Below, in pieces: positions 37,259 to 57,409 of a DNA stretch of 58,931 bases (positions are counted from its first letter, which is position 1; every line of letters begins with the position of its first letter). Where the stretch lies: NCBI GenBank assembly GCA_020722065.1, contig DYLK01000017.1, positions 1-58,931 on the forward strand, in the 5' to 3' direction. This stretch comes from Melioribacter roseus (GTDB lineage: Bacteria > Bacteroidota > Ignavibacteria > Ignavibacteriales > Melioribacteraceae). The notes under the pieces are model-generated. The model worked only from the letters and a program-made list of their open reading frames with translations. It made no database searches and was not told the DNA's origin. The translations under genes and the position numbers were made by a program.

Positions 37259-38272
37259 ATGCGAAATATTTTAGTTACTGGTGGTGCTGGTTTTATTGGT
37301 AGCAACTTTATAAATCATATTCTAAAAAGTCGAGATGATTGGTTTATAGTAAATTTAGATAAATTAACTTATGCTGGAAATCTTGAAAATCTCACAGAAA
37401 TTGAAAATAACAAGAATTATCAATTCGTTCGCGGTGATATTTCGAACCGTGAATTAGTAAACTATCTATTTGAAAAATATAATATTGATTCAGTAATAAA
37501 TTTTGCAGCAGAATCTCATGTTGACCGAAGTATTCTTGGTTCCGAAATCTTTTACAGAACAAATGTAATTGGAACAACTGTTCTTTTAGATGTAGCAAAA
37601 AAATTTGGTGTCGAAAAATTCCTTCAAGTTTCAACTGATGAGGTTTATGGAAGTCTTGGAGCAACTGGATTGTTTACTGAAAACACGCCAGTTTCGCCAA
37701 ATTCACCTTATTCTTCAAGTAAAGCTGGTGCTGATTTAGCCGCTTTATCTTATTATCATACTTTTGGTGCTCCAGTTACAATTACAAGGTGTTCTAATAA
37801 TTATGGTCCACTGCAATTCCCAGAAAAATTAATTCCTTTAATGATAATTAATGCTTTGCATAATAAAAAACTACCAGTTTATGGCGATGGATTGAATGTT
37901 CGCGATTGGATTTACGTAATTGACCACAATCGTGCTATTGAACTTGCATTTGAAAAGGGAAAAATCGGTGAAGTTTATAATGTTGGGGCTTCGCAAGAAA
38001 TGAAAAATATTGAAATTGTAAAGTTGATTTTGGGAATTTTAGGGAAAAGCGACTCACTTATTGAATATGTGAAAGATCGCCCAGGACACGATAGACGATA
38101 TGCAATTGATTCTTCTAAAATACAAAATGAACTTAGTTGGAAGCCAGAATTTAAATTTGAACAAGCAATTGTTAAAACTGTTGAGTGGTATCTTGCAAAC
38201 AAATCTTGGTGGGAAAGAATTATTAGAGGCGATTATTTGAAGTATTATGAAAATCAATATGGTAAAGTATAA
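37259..38272 (+). CDS. rfbB: dTDP-glucose 4,6-dehydratase
   Basis: RfbB converts dTDP-glucose to dTDP-4-keto-6-deoxyglucose, a precursor of deoxysugars such as rhamnose. The 337-residue short-chain dehydrogenase-fold protein has the NAD loop TGGAGFIGSNF (residues 7-17), AAESHVDRS, STDEVYGSLG and the catalytic Tyr/Lys in SPYSSSKAGAD. DNRVRDWIYV-like and RPGHDRRYAID segments are typical of RfbB. rfbA, rfbC and rfbD are not in the window. The left arm of a GxxExxY cassette begins within its stop codon. Confidence 0.95.
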   Translation: MRNILVTGGAGFIGSNFINHILKSRDDWFIVNLDKLTYAGNLENLTEIENNKNYQFVRGDISNRELVNYLFEKYNIDSVINFAAESHVDRSILGSEIFYRTNVIGTTVLLDVAKKFGVEKFLQVSTDEVYGSLGATGLFTENTPVSPNSPYSSSKAGADLAALSYYHTFGAPVTITRCSNNYGPLQFPEKLIPLMIINALHNKKLPVYGDGLNVRDWIYVIDHNRAIELAFEKGKIGEVYNVGASQEMKNIEIVKLILGILGKSDSLIEYVKDRPGHDRRYAIDSSKIQNELSWKPEFKFEQAIVKTVEWYLANKSWWERIIRGDYLKYYENQYGKV

Positions 38273-38300
38273 CCACAAAGGTTACAAAGAAGGCACTAAG
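38271..38300. repeat. Left inverted arm of decayed GxxExxY cassette
   Basis: A 30-base arm made of three related units ending in ACAAAG, ACAAAG and ACTAAG at arm positions 10, 19 and 30. It matches the reverse complement of 38575-38604 at 26 of 30 positions, with differences only at arm positions 11-13 and 27. It starts inside the rfbB stop codon and ends two bases before the pseudogene ATG. Confidence 0.85.
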
Positions 38301-38302
38301 AT

Positions 38303-38574
38303 ATGACCAAAGATAAAATTTGAAATATTGTTCTTGGTTAAGCGATTAAAGTCGAAAAACAGAAACCGTTGCCATTAATTTATGAAAAGATATAAAATTA
38401 GAAATAGGTTATAGAATAGATTTAATTATTGAAATAAAAGTAGATGATTCTCTTAATGACGTACATTTAGCACAAATTTTAACATATTTGAAATTATCTA
38501 ATAAAAAATTAGGATTATTAATAAACTTTAATGAAGCAAAGCTCAAAGATGGCTTAAAAAGAGTTGTAAATTAA
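38303..38574 (+). pseudogene. Decayed GxxExxY family gene (PD-(D/E)XK-like)
   Basis: Translated in pieces, this stretch matches the intact GxxExxY protein at 56563. MTKDKI, a stop, NIVLG, a stop, then [17 protein letters not shown] correspond to the N-terminus but lack about 28 residues, including the GxxExxY motif itself. After a frameshift, [19 protein letters not shown] and then [19 protein letters not shown] follow, ending [20 protein letters not shown] and a stop at 38574. A few codons between LIIE and EIK are also lost. So there are two in-frame stops, a frameshift and at least two deletions, and it cannot be functional. It resembles a paralogue, not a direct copy, of the 56563 gene. 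Confidence 0.85.
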
Positions 38575-38604
38575 CTTTGTGCCTTCTTTGTGTTCTTTGT
38601 GGTT
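38575..38604. repeat. Right inverted arm of decayed GxxExxY cassette
   Basis: The arm starts at the base after the pseudogene stop. It reads CTTTGTGCCTTCTTTGTG then TTCTTTGTGGTT and is the inverted partner of 38271-38300. It ends 18 bases before the ATG of the export gene, so the downstream gene's Shine-Dalgarno lies just outside it. Confidence 0.85.
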
Positions 38605-53583: not shown

Positions 53584-55577
53584 TGAAAGACATCTCAATT
53601 ATAATTGTTAATTATAATGTAAAAGAGTTCGTATTAAACTTAATTTCATCTATTGAAAAATCTTCAAAAAATCTTGCAGTTGAAGTAATAATTGTTGATA
53701 ATGCATCGAGCGATGGAAGTGTCGAACTAATTAGGAATCGATTCCCAAATGTAAAATTAATAGTAAATTCGGAAAATATTGGTTTTGGAAAAGCGAATAA
53801 TCAGGGGATTGAAATTGCAAAAGGGAAATTCATACTTTTCTTAAATCCTGATACAGTTCTGAAAGAAGATACACTTCATAAAATGGTAGATTTTCTTAAT
53901 TCCAATCCCAAAATTGGAATGGCAACTTGCAAAGTGCTAAATCCAGATGGAAGTCTGCAACTTGCTTGCCGAAGAAGTTATCCAACTCCTTGGGTTTCGT
54001 TTACAAAAATTGCTGGTTTAAGCAAAATTTTTCCTAAATCAAAAATATTTGCTCAATATAATCTCACTTATCTTCCAGAAAATGCAACTTATGAAGTTGA
54101 CGCAATTTCGGGTTCATTTATGTTCTTGAAAAGGGAAATTTTGGATAAAGTAAAAGGTTTTGATTCAGATTTTTTTATGTATGGCGAAGATTTGGATTTG
54201 TGCTATCGAGTTCGAGAAAATGGTTACAAGATTTTTTATTTCTACGAAACAGAAATAATTCATTATAAAGGCGAAAGCACAAAAAGAAGCAATATTGATG
54301 AAACACGAGTTTTTTATAATGCGATGTCGCTTTTTGTTGAGAAGCATTTTTCATCATCATTTTTAGTGAAAATTATTCTTAAAGTCGCAATTCAGATTAA
54401 AGAATCTTTGGCATTTTTATCAAAAAACAGAATAGCAATTTTGCCAGCTTTACTCGATTTTTCCCTATTTGCTTTGATGCTTTTTATTGCCGAAAATTAT
54501 TACAAGAAGAACACAACTTGGGTGGGTTTTCCAAATGAAATAAAACCTTGGATTTTTTTAATTCCAGCCTTTTTTCAAGTAATTTTATCATTTTTTGTTG
54601 GCGTTTATAAATCTACAAGTTTAAGTGTTAGTAGAACAATTCTCGCACTTTTTATCGGATTAATCTTAATTTCTTCCTCAACTTTCTTTTTGAAACAATA
54701 CGCATTTAGTAGAGCTGTAGTTTTAATTACATATTCTCTTACGTTTTTTGTTTACGCAGTTTACCGAATTATACTTAAAATATTTTTTCATGTTGGGAAT
54801 AAAAGCCATTTTTCTAGAAAAAGGGCGTTGTTGGTTGGCTCGGAAAATGAATTGTCAATCTTCATTGAAAAATTAAAGAAAAATTATCTTTTTAAAGATG
54901 AAGTGATTGGGTTGATTTCAAAAAATATGGACGAAATTGGGAAAGTAATTTTCGACAAAACCATTCTAGGAACTTTTGAAAACATAAACAAAGTAATTCA
55001 AAGTCACAAAATTGGAAAAGTGATTTTTCTCTCGAAAGAAATTGATTTTACTCAGATTTTCAATGTAGTTGGCTCGGCGAAAAGTAGCGAAATTGAATTT
55101 ATGATTGCTGGCGATGAACTTGATTATCTCGTTGGAAAATCAACGGTTACAATTCTTGATGAAATATCTTTCCATAAATTGAATTACAATATTTCACAAG
55201 ATTATCACCAAATTACTAAACGTATATTAGATGTTACAATTTCTTTACCAATTTTGGTTTTAATTTTCCCTTTTGTATTTTTGAAGAAAATTTTTGGTTC
55301 AAAAGGCTTTTTTTCGGAAATTATCATGGAAATACCATCTGTATTTTTTGGGAAAAAATCACTTGTTGGACCACGAAAACAAGATTTAACAGAAGAATTG
55401 TACCTTGGTAAAGTTGGACTTTTTGGACTTTGGTTCACAGAAAATGTGCATCAAGAAGATTCTGAGGAAATTAATAAACTGAATTTATTTTATGCAAAAA
55501 ACCAAAATATTTGGTTGGATTTAGATATTCTTGGTAAGTCAGTTTTGAAAATATTTTATGGAGAAAATAATGGCTAA
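53583..55577 (+). CDS. GT2 fused to a degenerate phosphoglycosyl transferase
   Basis: A 664-residue two-part protein. Residues 1 to about 270 form a GT2 enzyme ([51 protein letters not shown]). After about 280 there are four membrane helices (280-395), a Rossmann-like part ([15 protein letters not shown]) and a C-terminal piece resembling phosphoglycosyl transferases: [20 protein letters not shown] and [12 protein letters not shown]. The catalytic middle of that domain is absent: there is no KFRSM segment and no Asp-Glu before the VGPR motif. The second half is therefore probably non-catalytic and may act as membrane anchor or regulator. It overlaps accA by eight bases. Confidence 0.85.
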
Positions 55578-56520
55578 AACAATTTTGGATTTTGAAAAAC
55601 CTATCATTGAATTAGAAAATAAGATAGAAGAAATGCGACAATATCAAGAAAATTTAGATATTGACGAAGAAGTTGCAAGTCTTGAAAAGAAAGTAGAAGA
55701 CTTAAAACGCTCAATTTATCAGAATTTAACAAGATGGCAACGCGTTCAACTCGCTCGGCATTCCGAACGACCTTATACTCTCGATTATATTACAATGATG
55801 ACAGAAGATTTTGTGGAATTGCACGGAGATAGACTCTATAGAGATGATAAAGCAATTGTTGGTGGTTTTGCTAAACTTAACGAACAAAAAGTTATGATTA
55901 TCGGACATCAAAAAGGAAGAGATACAAAATCAAATCTTTACAGAAATTTTGGAATGCCAAATCCAGAAGGTTACAGAAAAGCTTTGCGACTTATGAAGTT
56001 AGCAGAAAAATTCAATATACCAATTGTAACTATGATTGATACTCCTGGTGCTTTCCCTGGTTTAGAAGCAGAAGAAAATGGACAAGCCGAAGCAATAGCT
56101 CGTAATTTGTTTGAAATGTCGCAATTAACTGTTCCAATAATTGTAGTAATTATTGGTGAAGGTGCTAGTGGCGGAGCTTTGGGAATTGGTGTTGGAGATA
56201 GAATTCTTATGCTTGAAAATACTTGGTATTCTGTGATTAGTCCAGAATCATGTTCAAGTATTCTTTGGCGTAGTTGGGAGTTCAAAGAACAAGCTGCCGA
56301 AGCTCTAAAACTTACTCCAACCGATCTTCTTTCTCAAGGAATAATTGATAGAATCGTTGAAGAACCACTTGGCGGAGCTCATAAAAATCCAAAATCAATG
56401 GCTAATACATTAAAAAATGTGCTGCTTGAAGAAATTACTGAATTAAAAAAACTTCCGAAAGATAAACTTGTAAATAAACGGCTTGAAAAGTTTAGTGATA
56501 TGGGGGTTTTTGTTGAATAA
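55570..56520 (+). CDS. accA: Acetyl-CoA carboxylase carboxyltransferase subunit alpha
   Basis: AccA pairs with AccD to move carboxyl from biotin to acetyl-CoA, making malonyl-CoA. ATG 55570 ([12 protein letters not shown]) is chosen because GGAG lies seven bases upstream; the frame's earlier ATG is within the preceding gene. The 316-residue protein has [23 protein letters not shown], the acyl-CoA site [19 protein letters not shown] and the oxyanion segment [15 protein letters not shown]. It overlaps the glycosyltransferase gene by eight bases, so it may be translationally coupled to it. accB and accC are 48 kb away. Confidence 0.96.
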
Positions 56521-56524
56521 CTTG

Positions 56525-56562
56525 TTTTCACGCAAAGTACGCAAAGAACCGCAAAGGTCGCT
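56525..56562. repeat. Left inverted arm of intact GxxExxY cassette
   Basis: Three CGCAAAG units end at arm positions 13, 22 and 32, followed by GTCGCT, and the GxxExxY ATG comes next without a gap. The arm begins four bases after the accA stop. It pairs as an inverted repeat with 56941-56982 at roughly 80 percent, with one gap. The spacing of 9 and 10 bases between units resembles the 9 and 11 found in the decayed cassette at 38271. Confidence 0.85.
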
Positions 56563-56940
56563 ATGAATGAAAATGAAATTGCTTATAAAGTTATTGGAAT
56601 TGCAATCCAAATTCATAAGGATTTAGGTCCAGGTATTTTTGAATCTGTTTATGAAAAGGTTTTGCAATATGAATTAATTCAAGCTGGATTGGAAACTCGT
56701 TCTCAAGTTCCACTTCCATTAATTTATAAAGGAATTGAATTTGAAGCAGGATTTAGAGTTGATCTTTTAATTGAAAATAAAGTCATAATTGAAATTAAAT
56801 CAATAGAAAATATTGCTCCAATTCACTTTTCGCAATTATTAACATATTTAAGATTATCGAATATAAAATTAGGATTACTAATAAATTTTAACACAAAGAT
56901 TTTGAAAGAAGGCATACATCGAGTTGTAAATAATTTATAA
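56563..56940 (+). CDS. GxxExxY family protein (PD-(D/E)XK-like)
   Basis: A 125-residue protein with the motif that names the family: Gly24-Ile-Phe-Glu27-Ser-Val-Tyr30 in LGPGIFESVYEKVL. The nuclease-like core follows: Asp67 in FRVDLLIENK, Glu77 and Lys79 in IIEIKS, and Gln91/Tyr95 in SQLLTYLRLS, the pattern of PD-(D/E)XK enzymes. The C-terminus is [20 protein letters not shown]. No activity is proven for the family. The ORF is bounded exactly by inverted arms, and a decayed relative with similar arms is at 38303. Confidence 0.9.
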   Translation: MNENEIAYKVIGIAIQIHKDLGPGIFESVYEKVLQYELIQAGLETRSQVPLPLIYKGIEFEAGFRVDLLIENKVIIEIKSIENIAPIHFSQLLTYLRLSNIKLGLLINFNTKILKEGIHRVVNNL

Positions 56941-56982
56941 CTTAGCGGACTTTGCGAAATCTTAGCGGACTTTGCGAGAAAA
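56941..56982. repeat. Right inverted arm of intact GxxExxY cassette
   Basis: The arm starts at the base after the GxxExxY stop. It is itself a direct duplication: CTTAGCGGACTTTGCGA occurs at 56941-56957 and again at 56961-56977. It is the inverted partner of 56525-56562. It ends one base before the thioesterase ATG at 56984, so the cassette also supplies that gene's 5' leader. Confidence 0.85.
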
Positions 56983-56983
56983 T

Positions 56984-57409
56984 ATGATAGTACACAGACA
57001 TGAAATACGGGTTAGATACGCCGACACAGATAAAATGCAATTTGTATATAACGGCAAATATTTAGAATATTTTGAAGTCGGACGAACAGAATTATTACGC
57101 TCATTAGGATTGCCATACTCAGAAGTAGAAAAGCGTGGTTATCAACTACCACTTGTTGAAGCAAATATTAAATATAAATCAGCAGCATTTTATGATGATT
57201 TACTAATAATAGAATCAAGTTATCAGCTTGAAACAACACCAATTATCCAAATAAATTATACTATTTACAGAAAAGAAACAATGGAAATTATTGCTGAAGG
57301 TTTTACCAAACATATCTTTATAAAAGAAGAAACAAAAAAAGCCGTTAGACCGCCAGAATTTTACATACAAGCTATCCAAAATGCAGAAGAAAATGCTCGA
57401 GAAAATTAA
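56984..57409 (+). CDS. 4HBT/YbgC-type acyl-CoA thioesterase
   Basis: A 141-residue hotdog-fold thioesterase. The family signature RVRYADTDKMQFVYNGKYLE (with the catalytic Asp in YADTD) and FEVGRTELLRSLG are near the N-terminus. Members cleave short or aromatic acyl-CoA thioesters. ATG 56984 is preferred over TTG 56972, which lies inside the cassette's right arm; the family N-terminus begins at 56984. No clear Shine-Dalgarno is seen, perhaps because the cassette separated it from its original leader (inference). It overlaps the following flippase gene by 29 bases. Confidence 0.85.
   Translation: MIVHRHEIRVRYADTDKMQFVYNGKYLEYFEVGRTELLRSLGLPYSEVEKRGYQLPLVEANIKYKSAAFYDDLLIIESSYQLETTPIIQINYTIYRKETMEIIAEGFTKHIFIKEETKKAVRPPEFYIQAIQNAEENAREN

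Follow-up and report, generated by a model that had tools for sequence, protein, structure and literature searches.

A nuclease-like gene between inverted arms

Between accA and a thioesterase gene, the window (by which we mean the whole 58,931-nucleotide stretch of Melioribacter roseus DNA that was analyzed) carries a small GxxExxY gene with inverted repeat arms on its two sides. The question that this locus raises is how gene and arms belong together: whether the protein acts on the ends that surround it, whether the gene moves itself, or whether the two simply share a site. The features concerned are collected in Table 1.

Table 1. Features of the two GxxExxY cassettes in the window and of the genes beside the intact one
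Feature	Position	Strand	Remarks
Left arm of decayed cassette	38272..38302	+	ACCACAAAGG TTACAAAGAAGG CACTAAG; read directly
Decayed GxxExxY gene	38303..38574	+	In frame only at profile positions 52-116
Right arm of decayed cassette	38575..38604	-	Sequence reading; unit cluster in window scan
accA, left neighbor	55573..56520	+	NF004344, E 3.3e-156; start in open reading frame list, 55558
Left arm	56525..56562	+	TTTTCA, then three CGCAAAG units starting at 56531, 56540, and 56550; read directly
GxxExxY gene	56563..56940	+	Intact open reading frame, 125 aa, PD-(D/E)XK nuclease-like
Right arm	56941..56983	-	Four inverted units (on - strand: CGCAAAG, CGCTAAG, CGCAAAG, CGCTAAG) plus AAAAT end adjoining thioesterase start
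4HBT-type thioesterase, right neighbor	56984..57409	+	Start ATG 56984 is our choice; start in open reading frame list, TTG 56972

An earlier note, made by reading the DNA letters, had described an intact GxxExxY gene between accA and a thioesterase, touched at start and stop by arms of CGCAAAG units spaced 9 and about 10 bases and free of any target duplication. Gene and location stand, the former with matches to TIGR04256 and PF13366 and the latter with both neighbors identified. The account of the arms stands in half: the right arm lies directly 3′ of the stop codon, but 6 nt separate the last unit of the left arm from the ATG, and while the left-arm unit starts are spaced 9 and 10 nt (as read from the sequence), the reverse-complement units of the right arm, at 56941, 56950, 56961, and 56970, are spaced 9, 11, and 9 nt, with CGCTAAG in two of the four. 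The right arm also holds an exact 17-nt direct repeat with a spacing of 20. CTTG and ATG flank the 56525-56983 element without a direct repeat, so the absence of a target-site duplication at its outer ends holds as well, the ancestral accA/thioesterase spacer being too diverged for the exact element ends to be placed. Tandem Repeats Finder, run on the window, reported neither arm.

The genome contains four matches to the family: the intact gene, the decayed copy at 38271, and two others (L002 and L003). The decayed copy has CACAAAG-type arms, different in sequence from those of the intact cassette, as had been noted before, and the congeners L142 and L146 have intact copies at the same site. 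The arms of L002 are of an ACACGGA/ACACAGAT type, and at L003 the inverted match is no more than weak (score 8). A scan of all 58.9 kb of the window for clusters of CRCNRAK units finds them in two places and no others, the 56525 cassette and the right-hand arm of the decayed copy at 38271. The pattern CGCAAAGN{0,8}CGCAAAG has no other exact match in the 2.38-Mb genome, and because there is no second exact CGCAAAG pair, this exact-match search returned no gene-free satellites of the window's arm type there. Separately, the congeners L144, L145, and L148 carry GxxExxY at what appears to be one site with arms that differ (ACACGGAT versus ACGCAGAT/ACGCTGAT), and in each of them the left arm matches the right.

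A predicted PD-(D/E)XK nuclease

By its modeled fold and active-site residues, the GxxExxY protein is a PD-(D/E)XK nuclease. The window's protein matches TIGR04256 (GxxExxY; E 3.2e-42, 143.5 bits against a curated cutoff of 35) and PF13366 (PDDEXK_3; E 8.4e-41, 139.4 bits against a curated cutoff of 22); no other family was matched at an E of ≤0.001, and no HuH (Y1) transposase was among the matches. At least 99% of 136 sequences keep G24, E27, Y30, D67, E77, K79, Q91, Y95, and N108; the D...ExK active-site residues D67, E77, and K79 stand at a frequency of 1.0 (they are also invariant in A1), and QxxxY stands at 0.99 to 1.0. We take this D-ExK-QxxxY set to be that of RecB/Cas4-type nucleases.

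The predicted structure (pLDDT 96.3) finds its best fold matches among PD-(D/E)XK nucleases, namely, SSO0001 (Z 9.6), which is presumably a Cas4, and lambda exonuclease (Foldseek E 4e-3); the Holliday junction resolvase Hjc matches at Z 6.9, in the tool's "common" range. These fold matches are middling, with none from Foldseek at an E of ≤0.001, and the GxxExxY profile found no solved relative by sequence at an E of ≤1. The gene is under purifying selection, with a median dN/dS of 0.117 (114 of 120 pairs). The protein is thus likely, on residues and modeled fold, to be an active DNA nuclease.

Inverted arms across the family and in a second gene family

The sample comprised 77 relatives from species genomes, the window's genus and family, and a number of short stretches. 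In one locus set, 19 of 81 loci were dropped for broken open reading frames or short flanks; 274 matches became 260 after removal of duplicates, with 136 full GxxExxY genes and 85 full four-helix-bundle genes (TIGR02436, from the same genomes). Flanks were long enough for arm scoring at 133 and 82 of these, respectively, and the left-right mismatch test described below used 134 and 82.

Inverted arms scoring at least 13 enclose 70 of the 133 GxxExxY genes, compared with 9 of 372 other open reading frames at these loci; when arms are mispaired, 37 of 1319 reach that score. The score is below 13 at the other 63 GxxExxY genes. Unit spacing favors 9 nt (402 versus 17 in the single shuffle that served as the periodicity control) and also takes values of 8, 10, and 11. 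The control open reading frames have a lesser excess of their own, at lags of 7, 9, and 14, which presumably reflects neighboring repeats.

Of the four-helix-bundle genes, 40 of 82 likewise lie within inverted arms, and here the period is 7 nt (708 versus 30 in the shuffle), with further peaks at 14 and 21. The unit sequence varies freely; in L176-L203 and L272-L311, which hold four-helix-bundle genes of the family, the 7-nt period is strict and the units again vary. Because arm likeness correlates weakly with the protein (r of ~0.13, reached in 0 to 2 of 500 permutations), we claim no clade code for these arms. As an observation in its own right, GxxExxY and four-helix-bundle cassettes lie less than about 2 kb apart in six genomes, as judged by eye among the matches listed (G045:C4, G056:C19, G069:C13, G043:C299, G051:C74, and G053:C40).

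Arm unit class follows protein clade

Most GxxExxY units fit either CRCNNAG (G class) or CRCNNAT (T class). The two arms agree in class at 83 of the 84 readable genes (60 GG, 23 TT, and 1 GT), the class being undecided on one or both sides at 52 of 136. On the 136-protein tree, a single branch (support 99) sets 19 of 21 T-class genes apart from all 64 G-class genes, with L026 and L041 as the exceptions, and arm class changes only twice over the 85 classed genes (51 of 136 were left unclassed for this test), against a mean of 19.2 and a minimum of 15 with shuffled labels. The covariation between arm sequence and protein clade that had been proposed as a check on the cassette is therefore found. 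Host lineage was considered as the cause of arm class and ruled out because both classes occur together in 10 genomes, among them that of the window. Protein identity also tracks the 5-mer likeness of the arms, with an r of 0.346 for the whole set and of 0.476 when only the window's family is taken, values that none of 500 permutations reaches. This test left out near-orthologous pairs, i.e., those above 80% identity or with similar outer flanks.

When the two arms of one locus are compared, the variable positions of the units match at 0.77, compared with 0.49 when arms are mispaired, and the spacer bases match at 0.43, compared with 0.31. Recognition of the units is favored because their variable positions match far more than the bases between them.

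Gene-free copies depend on the gene family

In 32 GxxExxY-bearing genomes, CGCAAAGN{0,8}CGCAAAG has 308 matches, compared with 9 for the reversed pattern. At 25 of 30 fetched places, the flank holds no GxxExxY relative, as judged by tblastn with the window's protein over 1.5 kb, a query and a range with which divergent neighbors may be missed. At the scale of the phylum, GxxExxY is carried by 74 of 148 sampled genomes. These 74 have 1022 pattern matches (the genes' own arms included) against 129 for the control, while the 74 genomes lacking the gene have 185 against 188 (Mann-Whitney p of 5.8e-7), and at least 8 matches occur in 33 genomes of the former group and 3 of the latter. Gene-free G-class copies are thus in excess only where GxxExxY is present, with 3 of 74 negative genomes as exceptions. 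In the three fully listed genomes (G155, G174, and G208), 28 of 30 matches are separated from any GxxExxY match by more than 500 nt. At two places, arm pairs recur every ~200 to 470 nt, like tandemly arrayed palindromes (G119:C1:2009476-2010398 and G174:C1:794744-796615).

Empty and differently filled sites

Empty sites, whose existence the earlier note had left to comparative genomics, are present at two places. In two congeners with thioesterases ~70% identical to the window's, the accA/thioesterase gap is 39 to 40 nt and gene-free; in a third (L083; G003:C48), with a thioesterase 91% identical, the gap is filled by a TIGR02436 four-helix-bundle gene in inverted arms of 7-nt units. Over 30 loci of the host family, the gap holds GxxExxY once and a four-helix-bundle gene once, and it is at most 60 nt long in 14; the rest contain assorted gene-free sequences, some palindromic (L171 and L173, by eye), and in two cases a different open reading frame.

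The second place lies in Chryseobacterium, between genes that we take to be murC and ftsQ. GxxExxY occupies this site in 18 of 58 species (60 genomes were searched and 58 read, L344 and L357 having no ftsQ in the stretch although L357 has GxxExxY; of the 18 calls, L315, L348, and L353 gave no full open reading frame by the motif rule). Turnover at this orthologous site is high: on a murC tree of 57 species, from which L347 with its 8-nt gap was dropped, presence of the gene requires at least 15 changes, against a shuffled mean of 15.5, and the expectation that presence follows the species tree was accordingly rejected. Arms are found at gene-free sites, as closed palindromes with the same arms in L323, L352, and L329 and as lone left arms in L317, L322, L324, L330, and L331 (by eye). 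In some species the gene lies inside the inner palindrome, and in others it lies beside a closed one. The spacer in L314-L373 also holds many unlike gene-free palindromes, and L354 and L355 have other small open reading frames beside repeat units.

Distances between the GxxExxY genes correlate with those between murC genes (r of 0.685, 15 genes), and repeated loss is for that reason the likelier cause of the patchy presence; descent at the site would be mostly vertical. The L318 and L319 genes are 1.5% apart while their murC genes are 8.6% apart, which suggests some exchange between these two. Within genomes, we found no recent copying of GxxExxY (best identity 75%, median ~40%, 86 pairs). Carriage by phages or plasmids was also tried and rejected, with 0 matches in 50,697 phage records, matches in 8 of 72,556 plasmids, and, in a pattern-limited search, 2 loci in viral contigs. 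With regard to homing, empty alleles are present and descent at murC/ftsQ appears mostly vertical. Of the possibilities raised in the earlier note, these comparisons of sequence support a nuclease that has cognate ends. The gene may or may not also move itself in a homing-like way: no transposition event is seen, the copies within a genome are old, gene distances correlate with those of murC, and there is no target duplication.

Preferred reading and its rivals

By analogy, we favor a REPIN/RAYT-like pair, a GxxExxY nuclease with its own cognate palindromic repeat, because of the unit matching, the clade code, and the dependence of the gene-free copies on the gene in trans; on balance, we hold this to be slightly more likely than not. 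GxxExxY would be a minimal PD-(D/E)XK nuclease that binds and so recognizes its own family of palindromic repeats, each an inverted pair of arms with two to four CRCNNAK units about 9 nt apart, and its gene would sit within or beside one such palindrome. The enzyme may cut DNA, and it would keep and spread the gene-free palindromes in trans by moving or copying them, as a RAYT would its REPINs. The window's copy would be one such cassette in a conserved gene spacer.

A broader version, possible but doubtful in our view, takes in both gene families. In Bacteroidota and their relatives, small nucleases of unrelated origin would each have a unit code to themselves, laid down in the inverted ends around their genes, GxxExxY reading CRCNNAK spaced by ~9 nt with the last base set by clade and the four-helix-bundle proteins reading 7-nt units of free sequence. 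The gene-free palindromes would be satellites of those that bear a gene, with both kinds competing for the same spacers; the second kind would include the 23S rRNA intervening sequence as a special case.

Of the rivals to the nuclease with a cognate repeat, the one that survives best, although we consider it unlikely, makes the arms resident host palindromes and the GxxExxY and four-helix-bundle genes independent passengers settled in the loops, perhaps via hairpin recognition, with the enzyme not moving the repeats. Two unrelated genes do occupy the same accA/thioesterase gap in close congeners, each with arms of its own, the Chryseobacterium gene sits inside or beside a palindrome depending on the species, and several kinds of gene-free palindrome fill the same gaps. 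Resident repeats need not, however, have an arm class that tracks the protein clade, nor need their G-class gene-free copies lose all excess in genomes without the gene, as these do.

Less probable still is an element acting at the level of RNA, like the 23S rRNA intervening sequence, whose arms would pair in the transcript so that RNase III cuts the cassette from the operon mRNA and spares the neighbors. Intervening sequences carry an S23p open reading frame bounded by terminal inverted repeats, and RNase III excises them (PMC4990558); the cassette of the congener has a gene of the same four-helix-bundle kind. A paired RNA stem was looked for through wobble asymmetry among left-right mismatches and gave no signal: G-U wobbles on the sense strand numbered 103 versus 89 for GxxExxY (p of 0.35) and 51 versus 55 for the four-helix-bundle arms (p of 0.77). 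The bases between units are also little conserved, and many copies have no gene. Left-right unit matching without wobble bias fits a protein reading DNA units better than it fits an RNA stem.

It is about equally improbable that the arms are operators, through which the protein would control its own and its neighbors' expression as part of a defense or stress system without mobility. In favor of this, each end of the gene adjoins an arm, selection on the gene is purifying, and close species differ greatly in whether they carry it, as with defense genes; against this, the arms are symmetric and stand at the downstream end too, and many lie far from any GxxExxY gene, as the 28 of 30 matches in the fully listed genomes illustrate. 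We give very little weight to a neutral origin, with tandem units arising by slippage and copied between arms by hairpin-templated repair and with the clade link reflecting common descent of each cassette, for although gene distances follow those of the host at one site and arms within a locus match beyond their class consensus, the preferred period differs by gene family (~9 versus 7 nt), the low dN/dS argues otherwise, and the permutation test excluded near-orthologous pairs.

Comparison with known systems

In the open-access papers searched, GxxExxY is named in passing and PF13366 is named, with no role or repeat association given for the family; the arm strings are absent, and no description of such cassettes was found among those on heptamer repeats, intervening sequences, REPINs and RAYTs, or interspersed repeats. 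Arms that go with the type of enzyme, and that many bacteria also have without the gene, point to an undescribed partnership of nuclease and repeats. GxxExxY is a common annotation without an assigned role, and its link to a repeat of its own with a clade-specific code opens the way to a direct functional test and suggests where one class of intergenic palindromes may come from.

Insertion sequences and MITEs differ from the window's element in that it has no target-site duplication. Cyanobacterial STRRs are heptanucleotide direct repeats, and they resemble the arms of the four-helix-bundle cassettes in their 7-nt tandem units, as does the heptanucleotide direct repeat TAACTGA of Beggiatoaceae, Cyanobacteria, and Bacteroidetes, whereas GxxExxY arms are spaced by ~9 nt. 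A regulatory role was proposed for TAACTGA (PMC4679880), and the term "four helix" is absent from that paper's main text.

The 23S rRNA intervening sequences share with our cassettes an open reading frame between terminal inverted repeats, and the congener's four-helix-bundle gene belongs to an S23p-like family (TIGR02436). In contrast to them, the GxxExxY cassette lies between the protein genes accA and thioesterase, encodes a predicted nuclease, and has arms without a sign of selection on RNA pairing. The four-helix-bundle parallel would tie these long-puzzling rRNA elements to a wider class of cassettes.

REPINs, dispersed through intergenic DNA, are inverted pairs of short palindromic repeats cognate to a RAYT gene that is itself flanked by repeats; the repeat type goes with the enzyme clade, and the RAYT, a HuH (Y1) transposase, would keep and spread REPINs in trans. 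Similarly, inverted palindromic repeats flank the GxxExxY gene, the repeat type goes with the clade, gene-free repeats are abundant only with the enzyme at the scale of the phylum, and the old, divergent copies within genomes resemble RAYT genes. The differences are that GxxExxY is a 125-aa protein of predicted PD-(D/E)XK fold where RAYT is a transposase and that its arms are built of tandem units ~9 nt apart where a REPIN is a single palindrome. REPIN-RAYT systems (PMC3116915, PMC3733652) are among the closest comparators, and if the enzyme does move or copy its repeats, the cassette would represent a partnership of the same kind built on a different nuclease fold.
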